Virus record (IMG/VR): IMGVR_UViG_3300023116_000242
Span: 1-28,853 of that record
DNA: 28,853 nt
Origin: a virus
Reading direction: 5' to 3' (one strand)
Under the pieces are notes generated by a model. The model ran no database searches. It worked only from the letters and a program-made list of their open reading frames with translations, and had not been told where the DNA came from. Of the stretch, positions 1 through 28,853 are shown piece after piece (the first letter of the stretch is position 1; each line of letters begins with the position of its first letter). Position numbers and translations under genes: made by a program.

Positions 1-289
1 GGATGGAATCGTCGACGGCGTCGTTTATCGCGTCGACCACATACAACAGCTTCCGAGTCAGATCCGGACCGAGGCGCCCTTCCTCGAGCAGCTCTCCTTG
101 TACCTTGCCAGCATCGCCGACCAGGTCAAAGTGAGGAAGCATCGCCTCGAGCGCAGAGACCAAGCGCTTAGCTCCGGTCTCAGAGAAGTCACCCTCGAGC
201 CGCTGAGAATCGAGGAAGGCGACGTCGACTTCCTCGGCGCGCTTGATGGCATCGCCGAGCATAGCCTCGGCCTGAACTGGAGTCTGCAT
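1..289 (-). CDS. Acidic-tailed virion-module protein, 5' part only (left copy)
   Basis: This is the first 96 codons of the gene that is complete at 28224-28730; it runs off the left edge of the window. The start ATG at 289-287 follows an AGAGGTG Shine-Dalgarno sequence that lies inside the end of the zinc-ribbon gene, whose TAA ends at 291. The protein sequence is identical to the right-hand copy over the shared part, although eight codons differ at their third base. The function is unknown; see the complete copy. Confidence 0.8.
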   Translation of the reverse strand, partial: MQTPVQAEAMLGDAIKRAEEVDVAFLDSQRLEGDFSETGAKRLVSALEAMLPHFDLVGDAGKVQGELLEEGRLGPDLTRKLLYVVDAINDAVDDSI

Positions 290-412
290 GTTACACCTCT
301 TTCCCGGCCAGGATATCACGCGCCGGCATTACCTCAGAGATAGCCCGAGTCATATCGCCGCCGTACTTCTTAGCTGTTGTTTGTAGCTTCTCAGCGAGGC
401 GCTCATCTTTAC
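1..412. repeat. Left copy of imperfect terminal direct repeat
   Basis: Bases 1-412 align without gaps to 28442-28853, with 11 substitutions by direct comparison (97.3% identity). This makes the window a circularly closed phage genome of about 28,441 bp plus 412 redundant bases. Eight differences are synonymous third-position changes in the 168-aa gene. One lies between genes, and two fall in a single codon of the zinc-ribbon gene (Thr to Ser). True terminal repeats of one molecule would be identical, so the two ends most likely come from co-occurring strains joined in an assembly. Confidence 0.9.
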
Positions 413-794: not shown

Positions 795-2432
795 TCACTG
801 TACCTCACTCTGTAACTGTTGTGCCAGCAGCTCGGCCGGAGTGAGGCCCGACGGCGACCCGACCACATCGGCCGGCGCCGAGCGGATAGACCCGCCGACC
901 GGCGCCTCCGGAGGAGCGTCGAAGTCCTCCGGCAAGTCAAACTCTCGCACGATGTAGCGCCGGACGGCATCCAGAGGAACGCCCACCGCTTGCAAGGCAG
1001 GCAGAAGCGCCAGCACCTGTTGACGCTTGAGCGCCGAGGAGAGAGGCGTCGACGCCTGATCGAGAGCAGCATACCGGAAGCGCCCGTCGAGATCCTCCGG
1101 ACGGACCACCCTCGGCGACCCGTCGACGGCAACGACGGCGCGCTCCCCCTCCTCGGCGAGCAAGTGAACCATGCGAATATACACCGACGACACAAATTCA
1201 ATTGCACCATCACGCTCCCTAGCAAGCCGGCCGATCTCACTTGCCGAATACTGAGCTAACGCCGTTACCTCCGTCGCCGTTGCCCGCGTAGCTTCACCCT
1301 TGACGAACGGCGCCAGGAGCGAGGCACGGTTCAGATCCCCGTCAATCTGAGCGAGGTATCGGTCAAAATCCACCGACAGCGAGGGGTTAGGCACCGGCGC
1401 CAGCAGCGCGCCGAGGGGATCGGTCGACTCAGTTTCGGCGATAGCACCGTCTATTCCGCTGGTTAGTTTCGCCATCTCCTCGGCGTTGAACGCATCTTTA
1501 CGGGCGATGAACTGGCGAGAGTCTCGGCGGCACGCGTTGGCGATGAAGGACCGGAATACGTTTTTTTCGACGAACTGATCATAGACTCGCGACAGTGTCG
1601 AGTATCCCTCGAGCGGACGGTCCGGTTTAGTCGCATACATGAGCGGGACGAGAGTAGGCAACGGCCGTCCATCGTAATCGAGGAGGGGTATCTCAATACG
1701 CTTGAGCAGCTTCTCACCCTCGGCGAGATCCGGAGACCAGGCGAGAAAGCGGTCAGACTCAAGATCCCACAGCTCGACAATTTTCACGTACAGATGCGAC
1801 GACGGCACCTCGGCGCCGGCCCTCGGCGCGCTCCCACTCGGCGACGACCCCGACGGATTGAAGTAGAACGATTTAGCCACTGGCTTGAAGTCTCGAGACC
1901 CATAGAGCCGCCGCGCCTCGGCGATGGGCAGATAGTAAGTATGCCCGACGTACCGGGCATCTTGCCAACGCTCGGCGTCAAGGTCGACGATACATTCCCA
2001 CGGAGGCACAGCGCGCAGCGCCACCCGGTTGACCAGGTCCTCACTCTCTTGAGCTGCCAGCTTCAGACCGGCCCAGGGATAGATAAGCGCAAGGCGCGTT
2101 GCCCGTTCCAGCTCGGCGCGCTGACGGTGCAGCCAGCTATTAACCGTCGCACCGGCGATAGCCGGATCGCCGACGGCGCTGCTATCGTGTGCCACCACCA
2201 CCGACGGCGACCGAGTAAACAGCGCCGCGACGTATGCTTCCACGTATGAGTATGCGTCGGAAGTCTCCACCCGAATACTGTGTTCGCCGAAAACCTCACC
2301 CTTATGAGAGCGCCAGAACTCGGTATCGTACAGCGCACGAAGCCGCCTCATGAGCCCCCGGTCCCGGTCCCAGCGCTGGTTATGCTCGGCGAGCGCCGCC
2401 CGAATGAGGGCTATATCGTCCTTTACACTCAT
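795..2432 (-). CDS. Portal protein, 545 aa
   Basis: This is the probable dodecameric portal, the vertex through which DNA is packaged and ejected and on which the tail assembles. The evidence is its length (545 aa, normal for podovirus portals), its position directly after the large terminase with an ATGA overlap, and its composition. The N-terminus is helical and charged (RDRGLMRRLRALYDTEFW), followed by a segment typical of portals (SDAYSYVEAYVAALFTRSP, about 58-76) in which pairs of helices precede the wing domain. The middle carries WECIVDLDAERWQDARYV, also typical of portal cores, and the C-terminal region is rich in Pro and Ala. No catalytic motif is expected. Another virion protein is unlikely given the gene order. 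No strong Shine-Dalgarno is visible, which fits coupling to the terminase gene. Confidence 0.82.
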   Translation of the reverse strand: MSVKDDIALIRAALAEHNQRWDRDRGLMRRLRALYDTEFWRSHKGEVFGEHSIRVETSDAYSYVEAYVAALFTRSPSVVVAHDSSAVGDPAIAGATVNSWLHRQRAELERATRLALIYPWAGLKLAAQESEDLVNRVALRAVPPWECIVDLDAERWQDARYVGHTYYLPIAEARRLYGSRDFKPVAKSFYFNPSGSSPSGSAPRAGAEVPSSHLYVKIVELWDLESDRFLAWSPDLAEGEKLLKRIEIPLLDYDGRPLPTLVPLMYATKPDRPLEGYSTLSRVYDQFVEKNVFRSFIANACRRDSRQFIARKDAFNAEEMAKLTSGIDGAIAETESTDPLGALLAPVPNPSLSVDFDRYLAQIDGDLNRASLLAPFVKGEATRATATEVTALAQYSASEIGRLARERDGAIEFVSSVYIRMVHLLAEEGERAVVAVDGSPRVVRPEDLDGRFRYAALDQASTPLSSALKRQQVLALLPALQAVGVPLDAVRRYIVREFDLPEDFDAPPEAPVGGSIRSAPADVVGSPSGLTPAELLAQQLQSEVQ

Positions 2433-3925
2433 TTGTACCGCCTTAGCTCGCCACCCGCTCGGCGCCGGAGGCGCTCGGCGCGAGAGGCCTGTATCAGTCT
2501 ATCAACCTCAGATGCACGGCGTACAGATAAACCCGTCGAGGCCAGGACGCACAGAGCCAGAGCGACAGCTCCATCACAATGCCCAGCCGAGGTACGAGGA
2601 AGAACGACTCGGCCGACATCGTCGACGGCCACCATGCGCAAGTCAGACAGGGTAACCGAGTCGACCTCAGTTATCGCCCCGGTCTCTATCGCCGAGCGCA
2701 GGCCGGACCAGAGAAGCGCTCGAGACCTCGGCGACGTCACCGGAGGCTTCCCCTCGATAGTATAGAGCCGGACGCCGGCGCCGGTGTAGCCGGCGCGAAT
2801 GGCCTCAAAATATCCATGACCATGATTATTGTATTCGATAGCGAGCCGTGCATTAAACCGGATGACGGTATCACAGACGATAGATAGGGCATCGTCGAAG
2901 GTGTGAGTATTGGACCGCCAGGTCGCAACGACGGCACCGGCTGTAACATCCAGAACGGTCAAGGCACTGTCATCCAGACCCACGCCGCCGGAGGGATCAA
3001 AGCCGGCGACGTACACATGCCCCGGCCTCGGCGAAGCCAGAAGGCACCGACCCCGAGACGCCCCCTCATGAGCTGCCAGCGCCGAGAGGATATGCTCGGC
3101 GAAGTAGGCGCCCGCCGCTTGACTGTACGCCTCGGCGATGGAGAGCGGATACTCACGCCGGAAGAGGACGTCGCCGATCTTACTAACCTTGTCACGGCGC
3201 CAGAGGACTTGACCGACGGTCAGCCCCTCGGCGACCCGGAGCGCTTCCTCTTCCGTACTCAGCTCCTCGAGCCGGTCGACACTGTACTCCGGCACATCGG
3301 ACCAGGGAAAGAAGAGCACCCGCCACCGCGCCTCACCCCGCTGAACTTTCTGGATTGCCTCATGTAGCGCATCGCCCCAATGATTAGCCGTACTCTCGGC
3401 GACAACCTGACCCCCCGGCGCGAGGCTTCCTTCCGTCGACGCCAGCAGCTCGGCGCCGTTCGGCGCGAAGGCAAACTCAGACAGCCAGATCCCTTGAGCC
3501 GTGAAGGACCTGGTTCCACCGTCATCCTTAGCGCCCATCGCCAAGACCTCGGCGCCGGAGTCTTCCAGCTCCATCGCCGTCGACGAGGACACCGACAGAG
3601 GCCGGCGCAGCTCAGCCGGTAGCGCCTCATAAAAGGACCGGACCATCCGCAGCAGATGCTTAGAGGACTTCTGTTTATAGCTGAGAATCACCAGAGTAAC
3701 GGGATCAGGAGAGGTAAACCAAACCCAAAAGAACCAATAGGCGACGAGGGTTGACGCACCAATCTGGCGAGGTTTCAGGACGAGTACATCCTCCCCAGTC
3801 TCGAGCGCCTCGAGCAGCTCCTCTTGTTGAGCGCTCAGCACGAACGGGACCAGGCGCCCCGCCTTACTCCGGACGGTCAGCCGAGGCGCAAGGCGCCGAA
3901 CCGGAAGCCAGGACCGCCAGCTCAC
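2429..3925 (-). CDS. terL: Terminase large subunit (packaging ATPase/nuclease), 498 aa
   Basis: This is the motor that cuts and pumps phage DNA into the procapsid. In order, it shows an adenine/Q-type segment PFVLSAQQEELL (27-38), Walker A KPRQIGASTL (51-60), a Walker B-like strand ending in LSEFAF (about 148-153), and coupling motif ESTAN (177-181). The C-terminal RNase H-like nuclease follows, with probable metal ligands D310 (AGFDPSGG), E364 (AIEYNNHGHG) and D451 (GHCDGAVALAL). The Walker B region has Ser-Glu in place of the common Asp-Glu, a variant seen in several terminase families. The start is GTG at 3925, overlapping the preceding stop by four bases (GTGA), with GGGGAT upstream. The portal follows by an ATGA overlap. 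All motifs are intact. Confidence 0.95.
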   Translation of the reverse strand: MSWRSWLPVRRLAPRLTVRSKAGRLVPFVLSAQQEELLEALETGEDVLVLKPRQIGASTLVAYWFFWVWFTSPDPVTLVILSYKQKSSKHLLRMVRSFYEALPAELRRPLSVSSSTAMELEDSGAEVLAMGAKDDGGTRSFTAQGIWLSEFAFAPNGAELLASTEGSLAPGGQVVAESTANHWGDALHEAIQKVQRGEARWRVLFFPWSDVPEYSVDRLEELSTEEEALRVAEGLTVGQVLWRRDKVSKIGDVLFRREYPLSIAEAYSQAAGAYFAEHILSALAAHEGASRGRCLLASPRPGHVYVAGFDPSGGVGLDDSALTVLDVTAGAVVATWRSNTHTFDDALSIVCDTVIRFNARLAIEYNNHGHGYFEAIRAGYTGAGVRLYTIEGKPPVTSPRSRALLWSGLRSAIETGAITEVDSVTLSDLRMVAVDDVGRVVLPRTSAGHCDGAVALALCVLASTGLSVRRASEVDRLIQASRAERLRRRAGGELRRYK

Positions 3926-4209
3926 AGATCCCCGAGCAGCCGCAGCACGGACGCCGGAGGCTCAGCCGTCGCCGAGGAAGAGGACGTCGACGAAGGCGCC
4001 GAGGAATCGGACGTCGACGAATCCCGCAACCACTGCACCCGCGCCCGCTCGAGCTTCCCCAGCTCGGACACGACAGTCAGCACCCAAGACGGGACGTCAT
4101 GAGCCTGGAGATCACCCTCGGCAGCAAGAATAAGCGAGTAGCAAAGGGCCTCAAAGTCCCTCGACTTGGTCGCCGCCCGTACCTGAGGCCAGCACTTCCT
4201 GTCACTCAT
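3922..4209 (-). CDS. Putative terminase small subunit, 95 aa
   Basis: The call rests mainly on position: it is the first gene of the leftward late operon and overlaps terL by four bases, the usual place for the DNA-recognition subunit of terminase. The protein has a helical N-terminal half (about 8-60) and a Ser/Thr-rich flexible linker (about 64-80) before a short Leu-rich tail. It is short for the family, and I cannot point to a clear helix-turn-helix, so it could be an unrelated small protein. The ATG at 4209 is preceded by AGGTGA. The region immediately upstream holds TGTCTT boxes and a candidate promoter, so this gene is probably the first target of late-operon control. Confidence 0.5.
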   Translation of the reverse strand: MSDRKCWPQVRAATKSRDFEALCYSLILAAEGDLQAHDVPSWVLTVVSELGKLERARVQWLRDSSTSDSSAPSSTSSSSATAEPPASVLRLLGDL

Positions 4210-4239
4210 GACTCACCTGTCTTGTAAAGTGTCTTGTCT

Positions 4240-4269
4240 ATTGTATCGCAGTCACCGATGCATGGTCCA
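4240..4269 (-). promoter_or_regulatory. Candidate late-operon promoter
   Basis: On the minus strand, TGGACC (4269-4264) lies 18 bp before TACAAT (4245-4240), a fair sigma70-type match. It points at the small-terminase gene, whose ATG is at 4209. The -10 element directly abuts the outer TGTCTT boxes (4218-4235), so a protein bound there could block it. The -35 element is only a 4/6 match. Confidence 0.35.
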
Positions 4270-4476
4270 GAAGCAAGACAGTAAGACAGCAAGATCCGCA
4301 ACCTTTACCAAACACGGAAGCGGAGCGCCGTCGACCAGAGCAGAGACTCTATCCTATTCCCTATTATCTCTGTCTTACTGTCTTAAGAAAATATAATAGG
4401 GGTAAAACCGGCACAATGGCAAGACAGCAGACAAGACACAACCGAGACACAAGACACAACCGGCGCCGGACAGGGA

Positions 4477-4508
4477 TTGTCCTTTACTATGAAAAGGGTT
4501 GCTATATA
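4477..4508 (+). promoter_or_regulatory. Candidate early promoter
   Basis: TTGTCC (4477-4482) is followed at 18-20 bp by GCTATATA (4501-4508), in front of the regulator gene at 4540. A second possible -10, TATAAT at 4392-4397, lacks a good -35 and sits beside the TGTCTT boxes at 4371 and 4379. Either could drive the early block; the assignment is from pattern only. Confidence 0.35.
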
Positions 4509-4525
4509 GAGTGAAGACCACAGAG

Positions 4526-4535
4526 AAGGAGCAAC
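4526..4535 (+). promoter_or_regulatory. Ribosome-binding site block shared by three early genes
   Basis: The ten bases AAGGAGCAAC occur here, at 7235-7244 and at 8249-8258, each just ahead of an ATG (4540, 7250 and 8262). The identity extends beyond the Shine-Dalgarno core (AAGGAG) into CAAC. It supports these three start choices and suggests matched translation or shared descent of the leaders. Confidence 0.6.
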
Positions 4536-4539
4536 CCCC

Positions 4540-5001
4540 ATGCGAAAGACAAAATACATACCCGTCACGCTTCCAATACACGCAGCGATCAAACAGCGCG
4601 CACAGATCGCCGGCCTTTCTATCTCGGCGTATCTTGACCAGGTCCTCACGCCGATACTCCAGCAGCGCCCACCCGAGACCGACAGCCCGTTCCCCCCGTC
4701 GACGCCCGCCCTGCTTCCAGCTCGAGCCATCGCCGAGGCGCTCGGCTGCACCCCCCAATCCATAATGGCAGGATGGAGAGGGCGACGGAGCTGGATGATT
4801 GTGGAGCCACCGCAGCGAGGCGCCGGAGGAAAGCGAGCCCTGTACCCGACCCGGACAGACAGCGTACACAAAGACGACGCACTCGCAGCCGTCCGCTTGC
4901 TTATCCCGGCCGGACGTCTGGTAATCGAGTCGCCGGACGGCGCCCGCTACACCCTGGAGATCACCGGCGAAGTTGAAGAGGAGCACCCGCTCTTTATCTA
5001 A
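4540..5001 (+). CDS. Putative ribbon-helix-helix DNA-binding regulator, 153 aa
   Basis: This first gene of the early block probably binds DNA. Residues 5-37 (KYIPVTLPIHAAIKQRA followed by AGLSISAYLDQVL) fit a ribbon-helix-helix fold: a short beta strand, a helix, a Gly-Leu-Ser turn and a second helix, as in Arc/CopG-type repressors. A second segment, ARAIAEALGCTPQSIMAGW (about 62-80), looks like a small helix-turn-helix. The C-terminal part is of mixed beta character and ends acidic. ATG 4540 is preceded by AAGGAG. The TGTCTT/AAGACA array immediately upstream is an obvious candidate binding site, which would make the gene autoregulatory; this is inference. The VirE-type replication gene follows after 50 bp. 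Confidence 0.55.
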   Translation: MRKTKYIPVTLPIHAAIKQRAQIAGLSISAYLDQVLTPILQQRPPETDSPFPPSTPALLPARAIAEALGCTPQSIMAGWRGRRSWMIVEPPQRGAGGKRALYPTRTDSVHKDDALAAVRLLIPAGRLVIESPDGARYTLEITGEVEEEHPLFI

Positions 5002-5051
5002 AAGAGGCGCCGGCGAGCACCCATCACCGACGCCTCACAGGAGGACAGTAC

Positions 5052-7253
5052 ATGGATAACATAGAAGCGATACAACGGGCATTGTACCCAGCACACCCGG
5101 AGCTGGAGCAGATCCGGTTCCAGCGAGGGACCGACGCTTATCTCAGCACCGGCCTATTCAAACCCGGCGACCCGCGAACCGTTGAAGCGTGCCAGCAGGT
5201 TGTATCCCTGTTGTTCGACGCGGACGCGGTCACCCTGTATCGGGACGAGTACCTCAGAGCCGGAGGCACTCCGCTGGAGAAGATCGCCGAGTACAAGCAG
5301 CAGCTCTATTCACTACCGCAGCCGGAGACGACGGCGCTCCTTATGCGCCTCGAGCAGCTCGCAGGCGACCCGCTCAGAGAACTACTCGGCGAGCCCACCG
5401 CGACGGTATTTTCCGGGTGGGGCTACCATTACTATTACTGTGTTGCCGAAGACGTATGCCAGCAGAAGGACCGGCTAAGCCGGATGCACCAGGCGATACA
5501 GCACCACGTATCCAGCGAAGCCGGTATCGCTCGGCTGCTTGACGCTACCCACGATGTAGGAGCCAGAGTAGCCCGTATCGTCGGAAGCTGGAATAGGCGC
5601 GCCTCCGGACGGCCAAAGCTATGCAGCGTGGTAGCCGGAGACGGTACTCGGCGACTCACAGAAGCGGACGTCGCACACCTCGAGGCGCAGCTCTTTACCC
5701 CGATGCAGCGCAGACCGAAGCCGGCGACGGCATCCAAGCCGCCCACAGAGAAGGCCTCAACAAAGAAGGCCTCAACAAAGAAGGCGCCCGCCGAGCTGGA
5801 TTGGTCGACCATGAAAGCCGACGGCCGCACTTGGTTGGATATCGCTTCCGGCCTCGGCGCCGGAGAGTCGTACAAAATCGTGTGCCCGTTCGGAGGCACC
5901 AGCAAGGGCAGCGGCTTTATAAAGCGCCTCGGCGACGGCCGTTGCTTCTATCGCTCACACCCCCTTGACCGCACATACTGGAGACCGGACGACCGCCGCG
6001 CCCAGCTCAGACGCAACGACGAAGGAAAGCCCCTCCAGACAATCAGCAACGTGTATACCCTGATGGAGCAGGACGCCGATCTGCCGCTATGGTTCGACAG
6101 CTTCCGGCAGCGCCCGATGTTTGGAGACCAGCCCCTCGACACCATCCGACACCAGACCGCCATACGGCGACACACACAAGACGCATACGGGTGGACGTTG
6201 AAAGTCAGCCGAGAGGACGTCGGAGTCGCCATGATGGAGACCGCCGAGGCCACGCAGCGCAACCCCCTGGAGGAGAAGGCGCGCTCGGTACAATGGGACG
6301 GACGGCCCCGCCTCCGGAGCTGGATCACCGAAACGCTCGGCGTTGATGAACCCCTATACGAAGTCATCGGTCATCGCTGGTTTATCAGTGTCGCCGCCCG
6401 CGTATGCCGGCCTGGTTGCAAAGTCGATACAATGCTCATCTTCCAGGGACGGCAGGGCACGTACAAGAGCGAGACGTTTAAAGTAATCGCCGGATATCTC
6501 GGCGAAGACCTTGTCCTCGATACCCGACTTGACTGGAGCAACACAACCAAAAGCCGCCACCTTCTCGCCGGTCGACTCTTCTACGAAGACGCCGAGCTAA
6601 TGAGTATGCAGAAGGCCAGCGGAGACGAGCTGAAAAATCTTCTTTCCTCCAGGACCGATACATACATTCCCCCGTTCGGCCGCGCCGAAGTCAGCCGGCC
6701 ACGTACCGCGCTCATCGTCGGGACCACCAATGATAGAGAAGTCCTCACCGACCAGACCGGCGCCCGCCGTTTCTGGATTGTCGACACCGAGCGCAGCCCG
6801 TACCCGTCAGCGGATCTAAAATGGCTGCGCGCCAACCTGCCTCAAATGTTCGCCGAGGCCGTCTCGTTGTTCGACTCCGGGGAGCAGTGGTGGTTGACAC
6901 CGGAGGAACAGCAGCTCGCAGATATCGCCAATGCCCAGCGGACGGAGGCAGACCCGGTAATCGAAGCAGCCCGCCTTGTATACGACGCCAACAGCGGAGG
7001 ACTATCGGCCGGGTTCACCATCGCCGAGTTTGTGGACGCCTACGGCGTACGAGCTGACACCGTCCGAGACCGGCGCCTCACCAGCCGAGCCGTAAGCAAG
7101 GCCCTACAGACCGCAGGGTTTAGCCGAGGGCGAACCTATCGGTACGGCGTCCAGTGCCGAGTGTACTACCGAGAGGACGTCAGCGACGGCGACAACCTTA
7201 GCGGACTGCACACACTCACCACACCATCACCCATAAGGAGCAACGTAGCATGA
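5052..7253 (+). CDS. Primase-polymerase / SF3 (VirE-like) helicase fusion, 733 aa
   Basis: This is the only recognisable replication enzyme of the phage. The N-terminal part resembles an archaeo-eukaryotic-type primase (prim-pol): a possible metal motif FDAD (55-58), SGWGYHYY (121-128, with the expected His126), and GSWNRRASG (178-186), equivalent to the conserved N-R-K segment. A Lys/Thr/Ser/Ala-rich linker (about 221-247) contains a tandem DNA repeat. Residues 275-300 (YKIVCPFGGTSKGSGFI) form the small connector seen in such fusions. The C-terminal VirE-type SF3 helicase has Walker A FQGRQGTYKS (464-473), a Walker B-like FYEDAEL (510-516), sensor GTTN (557-560) and an Arg-finger region TGARRFWIV (569-577). 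ATG 5052 follows AGGAGGACAG. It overlaps the next gene by ATGA. The host DNA polymerase is presumably recruited for elongation. Confidence 0.9.
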   Translation: MDNIEAIQRALYPAHPELEQIRFQRGTDAYLSTGLFKPGDPRTVEACQQVVSLLFDADAVTLYRDEYLRAGGTPLEKIAEYKQQLYSLPQPETTALLMRLEQLAGDPLRELLGEPTATVFSGWGYHYYYCVAEDVCQQKDRLSRMHQAIQHHVSSEAGIARLLDATHDVGARVARIVGSWNRRASGRPKLCSVVAGDGTRRLTEADVAHLEAQLFTPMQRRPKPATASKPPTEKASTKKASTKKAPAELDWSTMKADGRTWLDIASGLGAGESYKIVCPFGGTSKGSGFIKRLGDGRCFYRSHPLDRTYWRPDDRRAQLRRNDEGKPLQTISNVYTLMEQDADLPLWFDSFRQRPMFGDQPLDTIRHQTAIRRHTQDAYGWTLKVSREDVGVAMMETAEATQRNPLEEKARSVQWDGRPRLRSWITETLGVDEPLYEVIGHRWFISVAARVCRPGCKVDTMLIFQGRQGTYKSETFKVIAGYLGEDLVLDTRLDWSNTTKSRHLLAGRLFYEDAELMSMQKASGDELKNLLSSRTDTYIPPFGRAEVSRPRTALIVGTTNDREVLTDQTGARRFWIVDTERSPYPSADLKWLRANLPQMFAEAVSLFDSGEQWWLTPEEQQLADIANAQRTEADPVIEAARLVYDANSGGLSAGFTIAEFVDAYGVRADTVRDRRLTSRAVSKALQTAGFSRGRTYRYGVQCRVYYREDVSDGDNLSGLHTLTTPSPIRSNVA
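5751..5785 (+). repeat. 15-bp tandem repeat in the primase-helicase linker
   Basis: The 15-base unit AAGGCCTCAACAAAG occurs twice back to back (5751-5765 and 5766-5780), followed by a partial third copy starting AAGGC. It encodes KASTK repeats in the flexible hinge between the primase and helicase parts, where slippage would change linker length without harming either domain. Confidence 0.85.
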
Positions 7254-11156: not shown

Positions 11157-11779
11157 GACGAGACCCCCTTCCAGTATGCTGCGGATATTCTGGCATGGTT
11201 GCTCGGCTCGAGCAAGAACGACGCATCGCCGATGTTTGTAAAGAATCCGACCTCACCCAAGACGGCAGGCATAGTCGACCGCCGGAGGATGAAGAAGTTA
11301 GCCTCGGCGACACGCCGCCACCGCAGCTCGGCGAGGTTGACCCGGAAGGACTCGGCGAGGGACTCGGCGACGGCATCCGAGCGAGTCGTGCCCCGCGACG
11401 TATAGACCTCGATACCGTTTGCCGGCAGGCTCGGCCCGCGAATGTTGTTGCCCACGGCGTTAGAATGGCAGCTCACCAGCAATCCGCAGGGGTGTTTGTT
11501 CGCCGAGCGCACCCGCAGCGAGAGCGGCACATCGGCCTGTACCAGCTCTGTCCAGATGACAGGCTCAGAGATGCGACGATCCCCGACGCAATCCCAAACA
11601 GGGACGCCCGCCTCGAGCGCCAAGTTCGCCAGCCCCGCCGCAGTCTGTCTATTCGTCACGCCTTCATATATCGAGAGGATAGGATCTTCCTCGATAAAAT
11701 GGTATTGTTTGCCGCCCGGAGTCTGATACACCCCGTCGATAATTCCGCCATGCCCATAGTCCAGAATCAGACATCTCAT
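11144..11779 (-). CDS. N-acetylmuramoyl-L-alanine amidase (endolysin), 211 aa
   Basis: This zinc amidase of the Amidase_3 family cuts the bond between muramic acid and the stem peptide of peptidoglycan. The four landmark regions are present: DYGHGG (7-12, ligand His10), a Glu near 39 (IYEGVTNRQTA), SCHSNA (103-108, ligand His105), and LGEVGFFTN (174-182, catalytic Glu176). There is no signal peptide and no separate cell-wall-binding domain, so it needs a holin for export. The start ATG 11779 overlaps the giant internal-protein gene by ATGA, with AAGGA upstream. It could alternatively be virion-borne because it directly follows ejection-protein genes. It shows the host is a bacterium with a peptidoglycan wall. 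Confidence 0.92.
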   Translation of the reverse strand: MRCLILDYGHGGIIDGVYQTPGGKQYHFIEEDPILSIYEGVTNRQTAAGLANLALEAGVPVWDCVGDRRISEPVIWTELVQADVPLSLRVRSANKHPCGLLVSCHSNAVGNNIRGPSLPANGIEVYTSRGTTRSDAVAESLAESFRVNLAELRWRRVAEANFFILRRSTMPAVLGEVGFFTNIGDASFLLEPSNHARISAAYWKGVSSWFS

Positions 11780-14700
11780 CGCTGTGCATCCTTGATGATG
11801 TACTCGAGGGTACGGAGGTTGCCTCTTTCCCTATCCTCTACCGTCGGCAGGTTTGCAGGAGTCGCCGCGCCGATACTCCGGAAGAAGGTGTCGAGCGCCT
11901 CATTATCGACGAAGCCGGGACGGAGCTGAATCGGCAGGTCATCTTGCCCCGACGTCACCGCCGCATGATAGGCCGGCGCATAGTCACGGAGGGTACGGTC
12001 GAAGCCAGCAAAAAGCATCGCATGGCGTAGGGCCGCATAGTTACGCCTCGAGATGCTGTCATCGGCCACGCGCCATTGACGGCCCAGGTATCGACCACCA
12101 CCGGGATACTCTTCCTCGATAGGTACGCGCTCGACATTGACCAGACCGAGGAAGGTTGCCTCGGCGTCAGGGTTGAGGCGCATATACGCCAGGAGGCGCG
12201 GGTCGAGATAGTCGCCAATCGGCCGCCCCTTCTCATCTCGTTGAATCCCGAGCCCCACCTCAGATACCAGGGTAACCCACGGTGTAGCGGTCTCACTTAG
12301 ACCGTATTGGAGCGCCCGCTCGGTTAGGACCGTCGATGCCTCAAACGCTCGGCGACCAGGTCCAGCGACGTCCGCACCCGGCCGAAACAGCTCCGGAGAA
12401 GCATCATAGCCGAGCGCCGTATACATGACGCCATCCAGAACCAGCACCCCCGCCGAGAGATAGTCGACCAGCTCGGCAGCGGACTGGAGGAGCGGTATCG
12501 AAGGACCGTAGATGCCGACCCGCTTCCGAGTCTCCGGATCTTGTACCATCGCCAGGAAGGGACGAAGAGCCAGATAGTCTTTCGTAGCGACGGTATATTC
12601 CTCATCATCGGAGAACACGCCGAGCGATTGATACGAGGCGCGTATTCGTTCCGGAGACTCAAGAACATTAATGAGGGTAGTACGGAGCGACTCACGCCGG
12701 AACGACCAGAACCAGATGACTCGAGAGATGATGTTCCGTTCAACGTCAGAGACTCGGCCATAGTCAAACAACGCATCGTTTGCAATCCGGACGGCCTCAT
12801 CGACCGAGCGCCCCGCCTCGAGCGCATCCACCAGAGTACCGACACGGAAGTACAAGTCGCTGGCGTTAGCCGCCTGGTTGAATACGTTGACCTGTACCGA
12901 GGCGCCGCCGTCCAGTGTGCCTGTAAGATCCAGCCCGGTCCATTCACGCAGCACCCGACGCGCTCGGCCTTGACCCATCGCCCGAATCGTACGCGCCGAA
13001 GGGTCAGCAGCTCGGCGAGCTGACAGTCCAGACCACGCCACCAGGGAGCGGAGTACATCGTCGGACAGCTCGGCGCCGGTCTGTGTTGCGATCTGAGGAA
13101 TGAGCCGCGCCACATCACCAGCCGTATACACCTGACCAGTAGGCGACCGGGCTACAATCTGGACACCCAGCTCGGTCTGTCCGAAGAACACCCGGAGCGG
13201 AGTCGCCGCGCCGAGAGACAGCCCGACGGACCGGGCAGCAGCTCGAGCACCCGCAGCGAGACCCATTGTAGAATATACAATGCTCGGCGCGGTTATCCAG
13301 TTTACACCCTGATATACAAGGTTCGGCAGGAGTCGACCGGCCAGCAAGCCGCCCTTAGCCCAGCGCTCGAGGCCGGCGCCGACGTTGCCGAACGCATCGC
13401 CGAGCCGACGGAGGAGCCGATTATTACCGGGCTCATCGGCTTTGATCCGCTGCATCATTTTTTTGAACGACTCAGGAGAAGCGAGTCGAGCCAATCGGGA
13501 CCGGGCTTGTTTATCCAAGCCGAGCGCCTCGAGACGGGCTATCGGTGTGTTCACTTTGTTATCAGCGTACAGCTCAATATACCGCTTTAATGCTTCGTTA
13601 TAGTTGCCTCGACTCGGCGACTGTTGCGTCATCTCGATAGCCCGATCACGCACCAGGCTATACAGCTCCTTCTGTTGTGAGTCGCTGAGATCCGACAAGA
13701 GCCGCTGTATCGGTGCCGGGACCGTTGGCCCCAGGTCCGCGAACATCCAGGTCTGTTGTTGGTTCTCAGCGCGTCGATACACCGCCTCATCTTTGAGCGC
13801 ATAGCCGAGCATCTCGACGACGTCGCGATCATTGAGCGGACGGCCGTATCGGGTGGCATTGAGCTGGTCACGCAAGCCGGCCACGAACTCAGCCGGCGCA
13901 TACTCGGCGAGGTAGCCAGAGGACCGGAGGCGCTCAGGAGTGAACACCTCAGAAACTATCGCCGCCGTACGGCGTTGGAAGTAGGAGGCGCACATCAAAT
14001 CGACCAGGCGGTCTACCCCGAACAGAGGAGGGGTATCTATCGTGCCACCGAGACTCTTAAGCGTGACGCCCTCATCGGCCAGCCGGCGACACAGGACCAT
14101 CAACGCCGAGAGGGTTTGCTCTCCCCACTCAGCCCCCGACCCGACCCGCTCAAACAGCGCCACCACCTCGGCGAGCGCCTCCGGAGGAGGGTCTCGGCGT
14201 AGCAGCTCGGCAACCTCGGCACGCAACCGCGCCGGTGAACTCCGGAGGTCAAGCAACACCCGATGCGACGAAGCGCCGAAGACCATATCCCCCATAGTCT
14301 CAAACCCGCCGAATAAGTTTGCCAGCACATCACCCACCATTTGTCTCGGCGAGTCGTACGCCCCGGCCAGCACTCGAGCAAAGGCGACCGGCCGAGGGAC
14401 GCCACGCTCGGCGCGCATGAGTGAGAGGAACTCTTCATCAATCCCGCCCCACCGCCGGCCCAGCTCATCCACCAACGGACGGAGGACCGGGTCGATATCG
14501 TCGAAGGCATCCGGAGATAAACGCGCCTCGAGCGAGGCACGAAGGCGCCCCGGCCGAAGCTCGACAGGACGGAGGATAGACGACAGCTCGGCACCCTCGA
14601 GCGCCGGCGCCTCGGCAGGCATCGCCCGACCGCCCACCGGCGCGACTTCCTCCACCTTGCCTGAGGCTAAGGCCATCCGCTCAAAGTCATCGAGTACCGC

Positions 14701-16806
14701 CTCATTCAGCACCCGGAGCGGAACAGAGTCGGCACCATCACGCAGAGGTAGCCCCAGCGGGACCAGGTCCTCGGCGTCGACGCCGTCCAGATCCGCCACC
14801 AGATCCCCGAGCCGGACGCGCACCTCACCACCCGGCGCCGCCGGTATCAGGTACGAGCTATCCTTCCTAAGCGCTTCCGAAAGCATCGCCGACGGCCGCG
14901 ACGTAAAGCCCCGATACAAAGCATTTGCGACGTCCCGGTCAGCAACCAGCCTCGGCGTAAGCCGCACTCGAGGACCAGCAAGGGACGCGCCCCGGACGGC
15001 ACGCGCACCGGCTTGGAGCGCCAGCACTGAGGCCACCTCATCGGCCGACGGCGACTCGGCACCCGAGACCCGACGCACCGTACCCGGCGCCGGAGCAGCT
15101 CGGCGAAGCGCGCCGAGAGTGTCGCCACCTTCATCTAGCGCCGCCCGCACCGCCCGCCCGACCCGCGCCGGGATGACGTTGGACTCCTCCAAACGGCGGA
15201 CGAAGGTGTCGACGTCCTCTTCTATTCCCACCCGTCGAAGCGCCCGCGTGAGTGTGTCGACTTCCTCGGCGACTTCCTCGGCGACGTCAGCCGCCCGCGC
15301 CGGAGGAGGACCGCCGAACAAGGAGCCCTGAGTAGACGGAGGCTCAGCCGGAGGACCGCCGAACAAGGAGCCCTGAGTAGACGGAGGCTCAGCCGGAGGA
15401 CCGCCAAACAAGCTGGACTGAGTAGACTGAGGCTCAGCCGGAGGACCGCCGAACAAGGAGCCCTGAGTAGACGGAGGCTCAGCCGGAGGAGGAGGCGCCG
15501 TATCGTCTACATCCAGCACACGCGCCAGCCGCTCGGCGCCCCCGCGTACTTCCTCAGACTCGGCGACCAGGTCGATAAGGGAATCATTGACCGTACGACG
15601 AGACGGCCGACGGAGCGCCTCACGCGCCATCCGTACCGCCGTCGACGTATCCGCCCCGGCCCGAGTCGCCACGCCAGCAGCTCGAGCACCACGCGCACCG
15701 GCCCGCGCCGCAGCGCTTAGCCCCAAATCACCAGGGACGAGGAACTCCCCGACCAGGCCCACACCGGCGCCGGTAGTCCGGAGCGCAGCCCGCAACGGTG
15801 CATCACGCTCGAGGCCGAGAAGCTCTCCGGCAGCATCGCCGAGATCCCGGCCCCCACCGACGAAGCCTTCACCCTCACGAATACGTTTACCAGCCGCTTG
15901 CCCGAAGCTCTTGCCAGTGAGGAGCGCTTCCCCAGCACCGACCGCCGCCGAGGGAGGAGCGCTCAATACCCGCAGGGCATACAGTGTCGGAGCCTCCACA
16001 GTCTCACCCGTGCGGAGCGGACGAGTCGCCAGCGAGGACAGCGAGGCCCCCACATCGCCGAGTACCGCACCGGCCATCGAAGCCGGCGAAGGAGGCGCCC
16101 GCCCTGGAGCGCCCACGAACTCAAGAGCCGCCGTAAGCTCCGGTCCCAGATCACCAGCCAGGATAGCCGACCGGCGCTCGGCGTACTCCGCAGAGTCGAC
16201 GATATCGTCCAACGTCAGACCCGGCCGGAAGCCACCCTCGACAAGATACTTCATTTGGCTGAAAGCAGCCCGAGACGCCGCGAACTCACGCGCTTGACGC
16301 GCTCGAGCTGTATCGGCCGACTCTATTGTCTGAGGAAGGAAGCCTGACAGCAGCTCGGCGCCAGGCCGTCCGCTTTCTTGCTGACCTCGAGCAAGCCGGA
16401 CGGCCTCGGCAAAGACGCTCCCCTCACCCGCAGCCCGAGCCCCGGACGTCATCGCCGACGTAACGGCAGGCATACCCGGAGCCACCGCGCCGCCCGGTGT
16501 AAACGGTACAGTTTCCAGAGCCCGCGCCCGAGACTCTCTCTCGGCCACCTCACCCGGTCTCGGCGCGCCGAGCGCCTCAGAGACAAACGCCCGTTGCGTT
16601 GCCATGAGATCCGGTTCCCGGCCTCGAGGAGCTGGAAGCGGAGCCGGAGCAACCGGCGACGACGGCCCCACAGCCGGCGATGAGGGAGGCGCCAGGAGCA
16701 GCGACAGACCGCCAGTAGTAAGAGCAGCTATCTGACCATCAGACAAGCCACGCGCCCGCAAGGAGGTGTACTGTTGCTCGTTGATATCGTCCCGAGGGTT
16801 AGGCAT
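11776..16806 (-). CDS. Giant internal virion (ejection) protein, about 1676 aa
   Basis: The largest gene, last of three putative internal proteins. I start it at ATG 16806; an in-frame TTG at 16821 is possible but lacks a ribosome site. The N-terminal 430 residues are Ala/Arg/Gly/Pro-rich. Residues 448-497 contain four exact 15-aa repeats with QGSLF or QSSLF. The middle is long, charged and helical. Near 1340-1365, LFDYGRVSDVERNIISRV with a following WFW matches a motif seen near the end of large phage polyvalent and internal proteins. No lysozyme, protease or kinase motif is evident. By analogy with podovirus ejection proteins it would enter the host with the DNA. A tape measure is less likely because no long-tail genes are present. 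Confidence 0.75.
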   Translation of the reverse strand: MPNPRDDINEQQYTSLRARGLSDGQIAALTTGGLSLLLAPPSSPAVGPSSPVAPAPLPAPRGREPDLMATQRAFVSEALGAPRPGEVAERESRARALETVPFTPGGAVAPGMPAVTSAMTSGARAAGEGSVFAEAVRLARGQQESGRPGAELLSGFLPQTIESADTARARQAREFAASRAAFSQMKYLVEGGFRPGLTLDDIVDSAEYAERRSAILAGDLGPELTAALEFVGAPGRAPPSPASMAGAVLGDVGASLSSLATRPLRTGETVEAPTLYALRVLSAPPSAAVGAGEALLTGKSFGQAAGKRIREGEGFVGGGRDLGDAAGELLGLERDAPLRAALRTTGAGVGLVGEFLVPGDLGLSAAARAGARGARAAGVATRAGADTSTAVRMAREALRRPSRRTVNDSLIDLVAESEEVRGGAERLARVLDVDDTAPPPPAEPPSTQGSLFGGPPAEPQSTQSSLFGGPPAEPPSTQGSLFGGPPAEPPSTQGSLFGGPPPARAADVAEEVAEEVDTLTRALRRVGIEEDVDTFVRRLEESNVIPARVGRAVRAALDEGGDTLGALRRAAPAPGTVRRVSGAESPSADEVASVLALQAGARAVRGASLAGPRVRLTPRLVADRDVANALYRGFTSRPSAMLSEALRKDSSYLIPAAPGGEVRVRLGDLVADLDGVDAEDLVPLGLPLRDGADSVPLRVLNEAVLDDFERMALASGKVEEVAPVGGRAMPAEAPALEGAELSSILRPVELRPGRLRASLEARLSPDAFDDIDPVLRPLVDELGRRWGGIDEEFLSLMRAERGVPRPVAFARVLAGAYDSPRQMVGDVLANLFGGFETMGDMVFGASSHRVLLDLRSSPARLRAEVAELLRRDPPPEALAEVVALFERVGSGAEWGEQTLSALMVLCRRLADEGVTLKSLGGTIDTPPLFGVDRLVDLMCASYFQRRTAAIVSEVFTPERLRSSGYLAEYAPAEFVAGLRDQLNATRYGRPLNDRDVVEMLGYALKDEAVYRRAENQQQTWMFADLGPTVPAPIQRLLSDLSDSQQKELYSLVRDRAIEMTQQSPSRGNYNEALKRYIELYADNKVNTPIARLEALGLDKQARSRLARLASPESFKKMMQRIKADEPGNNRLLRRLGDAFGNVGAGLERWAKGGLLAGRLLPNLVYQGVNWITAPSIVYSTMGLAAGARAAARSVGLSLGAATPLRVFFGQTELGVQIVARSPTGQVYTAGDVARLIPQIATQTGAELSDDVLRSLVAWSGLSARRAADPSARTIRAMGQGRARRVLREWTGLDLTGTLDGGASVQVNVFNQAANASDLYFRVGTLVDALEAGRSVDEAVRIANDALFDYGRVSDVERNIISRVIWFWSFRRESLRTTLINVLESPERIRASYQSLGVFSDDEEYTVATKDYLALRPFLAMVQDPETRKRVGIYGPSIPLLQSAAELVDYLSAGVLVLDGVMYTALGYDASPELFRPGADVAGPGRRAFEASTVLTERALQYGLSETATPWVTLVSEVGLGIQRDEKGRPIGDYLDPRLLAYMRLNPDAEATFLGLVNVERVPIEEEYPGGGRYLGRQWRVADDSISRRNYAALRHAMLFAGFDRTLRDYAPAYHAAVTSGQDDLPIQLRPGFVDNEALDTFFRSIGAATPANLPTVEDRERGNLRTLEYIIKDAQR
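15305..15484. repeat. Four-copy 45-bp tandem repeat encoding QxSLF motifs
   Basis: Four 45-bp units start at 15305, 15350, 15395 and 15440, in frame with the giant internal protein. Each encodes a Pro-rich spacer plus QGSLF (QSSLF in the third unit by coordinate). Unit three differs from the others at several bases; the other three are nearly identical, pointing to recent copying. The unit length is a multiple of three, so copy changes keep the frame. Confidence 0.95.
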
Positions 16807-18286
16807 CTGAGGCCCCGGCAAGGGTGGATTCAGCTTCCAGCACGGCGAAGCTATGCAAAAGCTCTAGAGCTCGGCGCTGGTCATCGCCGGTATATGTGCG
16901 GATTATCTCATCTTCCAGAGTCGACAGCGGAGCACCGGCCCTCGATTGATACAGCGACGAGACAACCCGGCCCATCGGCCCCGACTCCCTCGGCGCACCG
17001 GACCGGGCCAGCTCAGCACCACGGACGCGGGCATCGAGACGCGCCGAGGTATCACGTACCTCCGGAGTGATGACGGGCTCCTCATCCTGGAAAGTGTCAC
17101 GCACCCGAGGCACCGGAGGAGGAACGTAGCCGAGACCGGCGCGGACGGTAGCGGGCAGCTCCGGAGGTTGAGCCCGTCGGATGACTTCCTCGGCGCCGAG
17201 CGTAGAGACCGCCTCGAGCAGCCGCTCGTAATCCTCGGCGCCAGGTCCTCGGCGAGACCGGAGGCGATCAGCTCCGAAGAGGCGCCGGTATTCCTCACGC
17301 GCTGTATTCACCAACGAGCGGACCTCACGCTCGGGAAGATCCACCGCCTCGAGAGACCGGCGCAGCTCGGCGAGTCGGGCTTCTATCGCCGCTGTCTCTT
17401 CCGTCAAATCGACCGGCCCTTCCATCTCCGGAGTGTAGCCAGTGACCGGAGCAGCAGCGCGACTTGTCACCGAGGTACGAGTACCACCCCCGGCGCCGGC
17501 GCCGTCGGCATCCGTCCGACCGGCAATGCTGTAGATGGTATCGTATTCCGTCGACGTTGCTGGATCGGTTGCAACCTGTAATGCCCGTGCATCATCGACC
17601 GTAATATCCGGACGCGCCGAGGCGAAGCGCTCGTTAACACCCTCACGAACCAGGGAGCGGAGCAGGTCGACTTGTGCAGGGTTGACCCTTGACCCCGTCG
17701 CCGCACCCATCCCCGCCTGTAGCGCTTGAAGCGCCGCCGACGTCTGTTGCTGGAGATCCGTCGCCGAGCTGCCAGAGGAGAACCGAACATCGGCGAGCGC
17801 TCGGCGCGCAACCTCGAGCATGGCCTCACCCTCGATAGCGCTATACGCCTCCTCAAACTCAGCCGGAGTCGGATACGGAGACGGCGCCGCCGGTGTTGTC
17901 GCCGGTGTTGTTGTGGTCGTGGTTGTACTCGGCGCCGAGGCCCGTTGCGCCGCATTGGTCGCCGAGGCTACGAACTCTCTTGAGGCGTTTAATCTATCGA
18001 TGTTGCGCCGGTTACGGGCGACCTCACGGTCTATCGCACCTGACTGGATATCAGCGAGGAGCGCTTCCGTTGACTGAATCTGTTGGAGGATGGCATCCCG
18101 AGTCGCCTCGGCGAGCGCCACCCGCTCGGCGAAGTCTGCATCGTCGACGTCCAGCCGGCGCCGCGCCTCATCCATAGCCACCTGCCAAAGCTCGGCCCGG
18201 TTAGCCGCATATCGACTCACATACTCAGCCGCCCGCGTACCCGCTTGGAGTGTGCCGGGGAGCTGAAGCTCATAGACCCGCGCCAT
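16799..18286 (-). CDS. Putative internal virion protein, 495 aa
   Basis: Ala/Arg/Glu-rich and mostly helical, with heptad-like stretches at about 60-110 and 290-330 and a Thr/Pro/Ala low-complexity linker near 125-140. It contains no catalytic motif that I recognise. It lies between the 219-aa and giant genes, the usual place for the middle one of three podovirus internal proteins. ATG 18286 shares one base with the previous stop (TAATG), and its own stop overlaps the start of the giant gene. It could instead be a neck or tail-tube accessory; no family is recognised. Confidence 0.65.
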   Translation of the reverse strand: MARVYELQLPGTLQAGTRAAEYVSRYAANRAELWQVAMDEARRRLDVDDADFAERVALAEATRDAILQQIQSTEALLADIQSGAIDREVARNRRNIDRLNASREFVASATNAAQRASAPSTTTTTTTPATTPAAPSPYPTPAEFEEAYSAIEGEAMLEVARRALADVRFSSGSSATDLQQQTSAALQALQAGMGAATGSRVNPAQVDLLRSLVREGVNERFASARPDITVDDARALQVATDPATSTEYDTIYSIAGRTDADGAGAGGGTRTSVTSRAAAPVTGYTPEMEGPVDLTEETAAIEARLAELRRSLEAVDLPEREVRSLVNTAREEYRRLFGADRLRSRRGPGAEDYERLLEAVSTLGAEEVIRRAQPPELPATVRAGLGYVPPPVPRVRDTFQDEEPVITPEVRDTSARLDARVRGAELARSGAPRESGPMGRVVSSLYQSRAGAPLSTLEDEIIRTYTGDDQRRALELLHSFAVLEAESTLAGASDA

Positions 18287-27210: not shown

Positions 27211-27371
27211 CCTCGGCGCGCCTCCGGACCACGCCCTCGGCGATGAGTCGCAGGTATAGTGACGTCATGTACCCAATCCGCCCACCAGTCAGACCCGAAC
27301 AGGTACAGCAGCTCGGCGAGGGGATGAGCCACCAGGTTGTGTACGGTCCAGAGGTCAAGACGCCGGATCAT
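27207..27371 (-). CDS. Small conserved phage protein (HNLVAHPL type), 54 aa
   Basis: Too short for common length cut-offs but well supported. ATG 27371 overlaps the scaffold stop by ATGA, and TGA 27209-27207 overlaps the next ATG the same way. Residues 11-21 (HNLVAHPLAEL) and WADWVHDVTIP (about 30-40) match a small protein I know from many phages, in which H-N-x-x-A-H-P-L is followed by W-x-H-D-x-T-x-P. The centre is hydrophobic (LAELLYLFG), perhaps membrane-associated. The function of that family is unknown. The tail is basic (THRRGRGPEARRG). Confidence 0.72.
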   Translation of the reverse strand: MIRRLDLWTVHNLVAHPLAELLYLFGSDWWADWVHDVTIPATHRRGRGPEARRG

Positions 27372-28201
27372 CCGTTACCCCTATCTTGTTGCGCCTTAGC
27401 ATCGAGATAGGCGTCCCACGCCGACCGAGGACGGGCAGCTCGGCGCGTTGCACCGTTGACCCGACGGCCTGTACTGGTCTGTTGCCGCAGCTCATCAGCC
27501 CGACGGCGCCGCTCACGCTCGGCGCGCTCAGCCTCGAGCGCCGAGCGCCGTGCACCGAGCTGCCCACGCGCCGCCCAGTACGCGGTCTCGAGCCTCATAT
27601 CCGGATTGCTCTTGAGCATATCGACAATGCTTGACTTTAGCTCGGAGTCTTCCACCATATCGGGATGGTCTCGCTTGAAGGCATCCAGCTCGGACCGGCG
27701 CTGTTGTGCCGCCAGGTCCTCTTGCAGAGGTTGCATGAGCTTGGCAACCATCGACGCCGCACGTTGTTCCACCAGTGCAGATAGCCCCTCTTGAGACCAG
27801 GGATCGAAGCCCTCGGCGGAAGTAGGGTCAGCCTCGGCGCGCTCGGCGATAGCTTTAGCGGCATCGCTATTCGCAAACACAGAACGCTGACGCTGGAACT
27901 CGGCGCGCTCAGCCTCGAGAGACCGGCGCAGCTCGGCCAGCTCTTGAGTCTTGCGAGTGAACGCCGCCCGCATATTCCCCATGAGGCGCCGCCCGTCCTC
28001 CGGAATACGAGCCAGTATGTCTTGATATGCCGGCAGTCCGGAGTGTTCAGCGTTGAGGAGGGGATCGTCAACCTCGGCGCCGAGCAGGTCATCTATAGAC
28101 GGCCCCGCCTCGGCGACGGTCTCTTCCTCGGCGACGGTCTCGGCGACGGCCCCTTCCTCGGCGACGGTCTCGGCGACGGCCTCCGGCGTATCGTGTTCCA
28201 T
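27368..28201 (-). CDS. Capsid scaffolding protein, 277 aa
   Basis: Acidic N-terminus made of AETVAEE repeats (about 9-32), then a long charged helical region (AFTRKTQELAELRRSLEAERAEF-type, about 85-110), a second helix rich in Glu/Arg, and a basic C-terminus (GRRVNGATRRAARPRSAWDAY) suited to bind capsid protein. This is the usual make-up of podovirus scaffolds, which guide shell assembly and then leave. It lies two to three genes before the major capsid gene. ATG 28201 follows AAGGAGC. The gene overlaps the 54-aa gene by ATGA. The 5' end is a DNA tandem repeat of CTCGGCGACGGTCT-like units. Confidence 0.8.
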   Translation of the reverse strand: MEHDTPEAVAETVAEEGAVAETVAEEETVAEAGPSIDDLLGAEVDDPLLNAEHSGLPAYQDILARIPEDGRRLMGNMRAAFTRKTQELAELRRSLEAERAEFQRQRSVFANSDAAKAIAERAEADPTSAEGFDPWSQEGLSALVEQRAASMVAKLMQPLQEDLAAQQRRSELDAFKRDHPDMVEDSELKSSIVDMLKSNPDMRLETAYWAARGQLGARRSALEAERAERERRRRADELRQQTSTGRRVNGATRRAARPRSAWDAYLDAKAQQDRGNG

Positions 28202-28223
28202 GTGTGCTCCTTGCTTGTCAGTG

Positions 28224-28730
28224 TCACATACGCGCCATGAACAGCGCCTCGGCGCCGTCCTCTTCCTCGGCTGGTTTGCTCGCCATCATCTCGGCGCGCT
28301 CCTCTTCCTCTTCCTCGATTTCTTCCTCCAACCAGCGCCGGAAGCCCCGGTCGGATGCAGCTCGGCGAATCTTGCCGGCCAGATAGGTAAGGTCCTCATC
28401 TCGGCGGATGGTCTCGAGGTCGCACTCCATCTCGGCAGAGAGGATGGAATCGTCGACGGCGTCGTTTATCGCGTCGACCACATACAACAGCTTCCGAGTC
28501 AGATCCGGACCGAGGCGCCCTTCCTCGAGCAGCTCTCCTTGTACCTTGCCAGCATCGCCGACCAGGTCGAAGTGAGGGAGCATCGCCTCGAGCGCAGAGA
28601 CCAAGCGTTTAGCTCCTGTTTCTGAGAAGTCACCCTCGAGCCGCTGAGAATCGAGGAAGGCGACGTCGACTTCCTCGGCGCGCTTGATGGCATCGCCGAG
28701 CATAGCCTCGGCCTGTACTGGGGTCTGCAT
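28224..28730 (-). CDS. Acidic-tailed virion-module protein, 168 aa
   Basis: ATG 28730 is preferred over the open frame to 28760 because AGAGGTG precedes it. The protein is helical, with an unbroken acidic stretch near the end (EEEIEEEEEERAEMM) and MASKPAEEEDGAEALFMARM as the tail. There are no Cys residues or enzyme motifs. It stands between the zinc-ribbon and scaffold genes, so it is probably a head-assembly factor or minor virion protein. The family is not recognised. A second copy of the first 96 codons at the left window edge has identical protein sequence. Confidence 0.75.
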   Translation of the reverse strand: MQTPVQAEAMLGDAIKRAEEVDVAFLDSQRLEGDFSETGAKRLVSALEAMLPHFDLVGDAGKVQGELLEEGRLGPDLTRKLLYVVDAINDAVDDSILSAEMECDLETIRRDEDLTYLAGKIRRAASDRGFRRWLEEEIEEEEEERAEMMASKPAEEEDGAEALFMARM

Positions 28731-28853
28731 CTTACACCTCTTTCCCGGCCAGGATATCACGCGCCGGCATTACCTCAGAGATAGCCCGCGACATATCGCC
28801 GCCGTACTTCTTAGCTGTTGTTTGTAGCTTCTCAGCGAGGCGCTCATCTTTAC
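28442..28853. repeat. Right copy of imperfect terminal direct repeat
   Basis: Matches bases 1-412 without gaps, with 11 substitutions. It marks closure of the genome. Physical ends or a pac/cos site cannot be placed from this alone. Confidence 0.9.
28732..28853 (-). CDS. FmdB-type zinc-ribbon protein, 3' part only (right copy)
   Basis: The last 40 codons plus stop of the gene that is complete at 291-737; it runs off the right edge. It differs from the left copy in one codon (ACT to TCG, Thr to Ser) and is otherwise identical. It carries the ribosome site of the 168-aa gene in its final codons. Confidence 0.8.
   Translation of the reverse strand, partial: KDERLAEKLQTTAKKYGGDMSRAISEVMPARDILAGKEV

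Follow-up and report, generated by a model that had tools for sequence, protein, structure and literature searches.

A putative PICI-type iteron origin beside the VapE-like helicase operon of an uncultured tailed phage

INTRODUCTION

In PICIs the replication origin directly follows the 3′ end of rep and consists of an AT-rich region with an iteron set on either side, and function of the pri-rep-ori unit has been tested (PMC6092414). Here we describe an array of short boxes in a 28.9 kb IMG/VR contig (IMGVR_UViG_3300023116_000242; its whole length of 28,853 nucleotides is called the window). Like the PICI/SaPI origin, represented by that of PriRep1 (PDB 7pds), this locus has two sets of short iterons and an AT-rich stretch within about 250 bp together with a self-loading helicase of the VapE family, and its AAGACA box is itself found in some SaPI-like elements. 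Unlike these elements, the window belongs to a tailed phage that encodes a terminase and portal of its own, and its array, a near-palindrome, occupies a divergent promoter region 5′ of the replication operon. Moreover, its VapE shares only about 25% identity with the SaPI type, and its wing residues misfit the SaPI rule described below. The window also resembles pRN1, in which a small repressor (orf56) precedes a primase/SF3-helicase initiator (orf904), but the pRN1 origin, located 3′ of the helicase gene, is a stem-loop and no iteron array (PMC4234260). We consider it likely that positions 4218–4456 are a PICI-type iteron origin used by the VapE-like self-loading helicase of this phage, and we hold the origin function alone, leaving its user unnamed, with still greater confidence.

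RESULTS

A nested box array between divergent gene blocks

The two ends of the window (1–412 and 28442–28853) match without gaps at 401 of 412 positions (97.3%), thus the record is probably a nearly complete genome, terminally redundant or circular, assembled from a mixed population. Leftward of the array lie a 95-aa ORF (3922–4209, minus strand), the terminase large subunit gene (2429–3925, minus strand; phrog_2, E = 1.6e-25; 83% identical in the close relative L003) and the portal gene, and rightward lie the genes of a 153-aa protein (4540–5001, plus strand) and a 733-aa VapE-like helicase (5052–7253, plus strand), further early genes and an HNH nuclease gene. The 95-aa ORF, which is the first gene of the leftward block, had no match in family and PHROGs searches and is a putative terminase small subunit by position only; it is conserved in L003 at 4874–5149. 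Searches of named phages with the window terminase and VapE gave distant matches only. Elsewhere in the window, a 1681-aa ORF (11776–16821, minus strand) has no PHROGs match and contains internal near-repeats GGPPAEPPSTQGSLF at about 15300–15480, and a cluster of CTCGGC/CGCCGA at 28072–28360 reflects a tandem repeat (ETVAEE...) encoded in the ORF at 27368–28201.

The initial annotation of this DNA had described nine copies of TGTCTT or AAGACA in 4210–4460 as nested inverted repeats. The exact-match count is indeed nine, spanning 239 bp (4218–4456), with boxes at 4218, 4230, 4371 and 4379 on the plus strand and at 4275, 4283, 4421, 4433 and 4451 on the minus strand; they form two iteron sets, of four boxes at 4218–4288 and five at 4371–4456. 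The left outer pair TGTCTTGTAAAGTGTCTT (4218–4235, plus strand) has its boxes 12 bp apart, and the left inner pair AAGACAGTAAGACAG (4275–4289, minus strand) has them 8 bp apart, as does the right inner pair CTGTCTTACTGTCTT (4370–4384, plus strand), which is the exact complement of the left inner pair over all 15 nt (100%). The outer arms (4218–4236 and 4420–4438) are less perfect, being 79% complementary over 19 nt. The right outer boxes (AAGACA at 4421, 4433 and 4451; 4421–4456, minus strand) include the direct repeat ACAAGACACAACCG (4431/4449), and one-mismatch boxes occur inside the array at 4235, 4428 and 4444. The annotated centres (4329.5 for the inner and 4328 for the outer repeats) and box spacings (8 bp inside, 12 bp outside) were likewise correct. 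A tenth exact box at 4546, within the beginning of the 153-aa ORF, is probably a chance match. Over the whole window the box total does not exceed chance (12 versus 7.95 expected). What exceeds chance is the clustering, nine boxes falling within 240 bp where 300 Markov shuffles of the record gave two at most, and AAGACA at 4218 had the lowest Poisson P (6e-17) among all hexamer clusters of the record.

L003 (contig IMGVR_UViG_3300025671_000925), with a VapE 62% identical to that of the window, is the only close relative known; when close relatives of VapE were sought a second time, only this contig and one distant locus were found. Its array occupies the same intergenic place and its left boxes have the same distances (12, 57 and 8 bp), with the left outer boxes at 5160/5172, the left inner pair at 5217–5231 and the right inner pair at 5302–5316, both identical to those of the window and the right one still followed by AAGAAA. 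The right outer boxes of L003 are also 12 bp apart and are present in more copies, and the spacer is mostly diverged and 10 bp shorter. A helical-phasing reading of the 10-bp difference in centre spacing (96 versus 86 bp) was dropped, because independent lineages were too few and the spacing distribution was truncated at 96 by the search range.

The AT-rich stretch reported in this region is present, with 27.5% GC at 4360–4399 and 39% at 4385–4420 compared with 61.8% overall, and on GC content 4360–4420 is a candidate DNA-unwinding element. The GC minimum extends over the right inner pair into the gap before the right outer boxes, and the 82-bp array centre (4289–4370) has 52% GC. No DnaA box (TTATNCACA, up to one mismatch) was found at 3900–5100 of the window, so the locus does not present as a DnaA-type origin. 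Cumulative GC skew, proposed earlier as a check for an origin, falls almost steadily without a turning point and is therefore uninformative in this respect.

Between the outer and inner left boxes, a consensus scan gave a leftward promoter-like sequence, TGGACC-18-TACAAT (4240–4269, minus strand), which is a weak match. L003 has TATAAT at the corresponding place, and the consensus scan of L003 listed no promoter at this spot. Since promoter-like hexamers, weak consensus matches only, lie among the boxes of both contigs, a regulatory side role is possible. The array might then be an origin at which VapE, alone or together with the 153-aa protein, represses the overlapping divergent promoters as well, coupling replication to the early/late switch. 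We regard such dual use as possible but rather doubtful: the array fills the divergent early/late gap in the window and L003 and abuts terminase genes in L108, L132 and marine phages, but the promoters are weak matches and most VapE loci have the array 3′ of rep, away from a divergent promoter.

Elements with dense AAGACA arrays have a primase-helicase in common

A scan with AAGACAGTAAGACAG returned 88 viral contigs, about equal to chance expectation by our rough estimate, and about a dozen of them had dense box clusters. Two inverted 8-bp-spaced pairs were found in 41 viral contigs, where we estimate well under one by chance, and most of these contigs come from one marine podovirus group. Dense AAGACA arrays do not belong to the window and L003 alone; they are also found in unrelated phages and SaPI-like satellites, and the factor they have in common with the window is a self-loading primase-helicase, not the 153-aa regulator. 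In the SaPI-like L015, L038, L077 and L085, where VapE is the only protein shared with the window, the array starts at the VapE stop or no more than about 30 bp from it, and in a PF05272 family scan of 50 records all five matches over the cut-off fell in array-bearing contigs. The Prim-Pol+D5/DUF5906 helicase of L058 stops about 20 bp short of the array, and that of L117 abuts it; primase-helicases of 611 and 618 aa are transcribed towards the array in L108 and L132; L025 and L064 have primase proteins of about 1000 aa with weak helicase matches; and L133, of the marine podovirus group, has a 989-aa DUF927 protein (L320). SaPI and SCC Rep helicases also occur in D5_N and DUF927 forms (PMC10061031). 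No primase-helicase gene was found in the sequence examined of L046 and L023.

These comparisons bear on the earlier proposal that the boxes are bound by the 153-aa protein, which has a weak ribbon-helix-helix (RHH, NikA-like) N-terminus (PF21983, E = 0.0011, below cut-off) and a second region that is possibly a helix-turn-helix. As an operator of this protein, the boxes would be occupied by tandem dimers on both arms, possibly looping the DNA, and would switch the leftward late and rightward early promoters. The 8-bp tandem spacing of the inner pairs recalls operators of RHH proteins, for example met boxes, and the regulator gene lies directly downstream of boxes that have promoter-like hexamers among them in both the window and L003. 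Moreover, pRN1 has a repressor gene and a primase-helicase gene in one operon (PMC4234260). Against this, the SaPI-like elements with the same boxes have VapE as their sole protein in common with the window, and the predicted RHH strand changes from RKTKYIPV in the window to PRYKQLAI in L003, the whole proteins being 38% identical, although the boxes are identical. Binding by the 153-aa protein is thus disfavoured, and we judge the operator explanation improbable. L003 keeps the 153-aa gene as well as the boxes; a search for related loci with the 153-aa protein found no relatives. By this comparison, the boxes are probably bound by the window VapE rather than by the 153-aa regulator.

VapE genes are often followed by short-repeat arrays

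From a VapE alignment we took 80 loci and located the densest repeated hexamer at each without a preset motif. After dereplication, 31 of 41 VapE loci had a hexamer array that beats shuffles, and 28 of these 31 arrays were centred between −60 and +300 bp of the VapE stop, nearly all of them at +60 to +150, an arrangement that matches the PICI origin in position and form. The repeats occur in the dialects AAGACA, TAGACA, AGGACA, GGGACA, GGAACA, GGCAAC, GTATCA, GGACACA, GGAATCA and CTACAA, and the AAGACA dialect itself is present in the SaPI-like L038, L241 and L247–L252. Among named phages, arrays lie beside VapE in Corynebacterium phage Dina (GGGACA, nine copies), Paenibacillus phage GaryLarson (10 copies), Pseudomonas phage LPPA36 (nine copies, 381–645 bp past the stop) and Streptococcus phage Javan645 (seven copies); two Bacteroides phages had no array beside VapE, and R1988 and RcPescado were borderline. 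Dense hexamer arrays (GATGCA, 12 copies; GAACAA, 11 copies) were also seen 3.2–3.6 kb beyond VapE in L294, L298 and L310, and may represent the origins of a different replicon, or repeats of another kind.

Dialects switch between near-identical helicases, as in L038 versus L242. In 28 SaPI-like VapEs, residue 463 is Q where base 2 of the box is A and R or K where it is G (28/28, nine parsimony changes), and residue 472 is K or R where base 3 is G and P or L where it is A (28/28, three parsimony changes); where resolution of the tree is poor, these numbers of changes are upper estimates. In the AF2 model, both residues are located on the wing hairpin (457–465/472–478) of a predicted C-terminal winged helix (pLDDT mostly >80), and PriRep1 (7pds), a helicase whose structure was solved with dsDNA, shares its Q/K wing type with the VapEs that have AAGACA arrays. 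Because the 3′ end of rep adjoins the array in SaPI-like elements, this co-variation could partly reflect block exchange. In the larger VapE class, position x of a YGxQ motif also follows the dialect in most members, L284 being one of the exceptions.

RHH-type partition proteins likewise use tandem short repeats as their centromeres, and the array of the window could in principle be a partition (centromere-like) or host-factor site instead of an origin. However, no gene for a partition ATPase was found in the vicinity, and the repeat varies by lineage and co-varies with Rep in SaPI-like elements, unlike the site of a conserved host factor; we regard this explanation as very improbable.

The VapE-like helicase of the window

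The window contains a VapE/D5/DUF927-type helicase, the proposed initiator, in cis, as judged from its PF05272 match (E = 5e-58) and from a fold that is closest to SaPI PriRep1 7pds (E = 9.6e-22), a structure which itself matches the VapE family profile with E = 4.5e-197. Its predicted C-terminal winged helix appears in the AF2 model as helices and a hairpin (690–697/700–707; pLDDT about 60–70). The SaPI wing code was tried on this protein and rejected: the YGxQ motif reads YGVQ in the window and HGQQ in L003, and neither V nor Q at x fits the K/R-to-G rule. Thus, VapE binding in the window is suggested by association and not by the code, and the box binder is named here by inference.

In contrast to the PICI arrangement, the array of the window does not directly follow rep; it ends about 600 bp upstream of the VapE start, and near the VapE stop no comparable hexamer array was found. 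The phage contig L004 (IMGVR_UViG_3300030372_005415, 28.7 kb), whose VapE scored highest after that of L003 in a search with the window VapE (33% identity over the best segment), likewise has its array at the 5′ end of the VapE gene, where GTGACA boxes form inverted sets of pairs spaced by 8 bp, and L011 also has an array upstream of VapE. The 5′ placement is therefore a recurring variant. L004 has a VapE of the same kind as the window and the same array geometry, but differs in its GTGACA box and in seven exact DnaA boxes that adjoin the array (0.12 expected), where the window has none. These DnaA boxes independently support such arrays being origins.

DISCUSSION

The VapE/SaPI-type replicon comparison, the PICI origin description (PMC6092414) and L004 with its DnaA boxes together support the part of the initial annotation that had suggested an iteron origin. 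We suggest that the origin separates the leftward packaging genes from the rightward replication operon, in which the 153-aa regulator precedes VapE, and that its two iteron sets of AAGACA/TGTCTT, with spacings of 8 and 12 bp and facing each other, are arranged around and beside the AT-rich stretch. The VapE-like protein would bind the boxes via its C-terminal winged helix, assemble on both box sets, melt the AT-rich DNA and load itself as replicative helicase. Against this reading stand the position of the array 5′, not 3′, of the helicase gene, the lack of nearby DnaA boxes, the wing misfit, the GC skew without turning point and the fact that the lone relative keeps the 153-aa gene as well.

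Phages that encode structural genes of their own, and also named phages, have similar arrays beside VapE, and VapE-linked arrays offer a way to locate replication origins of uncultured phages by sequence alone. Moreover, the co-variation of box and wing makes origin specificity directly testable. As a tentative proposal, VapE-type helicases may read their iterons by a wing code (Gln for A, Arg or Lys for G), with origins and helicases evolving as matched pairs, and in the lineage of this phage the origin may have moved into the divergent early/late promoter, where one initiator would both fire replication and set the switch.

Among genome contigs, most matches proved to be ACCACRAAGACACRAAG palindromes in MAGs, which are another repeat, and these were left aside. 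Intergenic palindromes of the form ACCACRAAGACACRAAGACACRAAG ... CTTYGTGTCTTYGTGTCTTYGTGGT, also a different repeat, occur several per genome in Deltaproteobacteria, Acidobacteria, Elusimicrobia, Holophagaceae and Azospirillum (L155 7113–7218, L163 2790–2899, L164 7632–7734, L169 5387–5482, L178 388–491 and many more). Dense tandem arrays of AAGACA type were seen in Prevotella and Muribaculaceae MAGs (L154 4940–5190, L160 3000–3120, L172 277–389 and L229 5826–5990).
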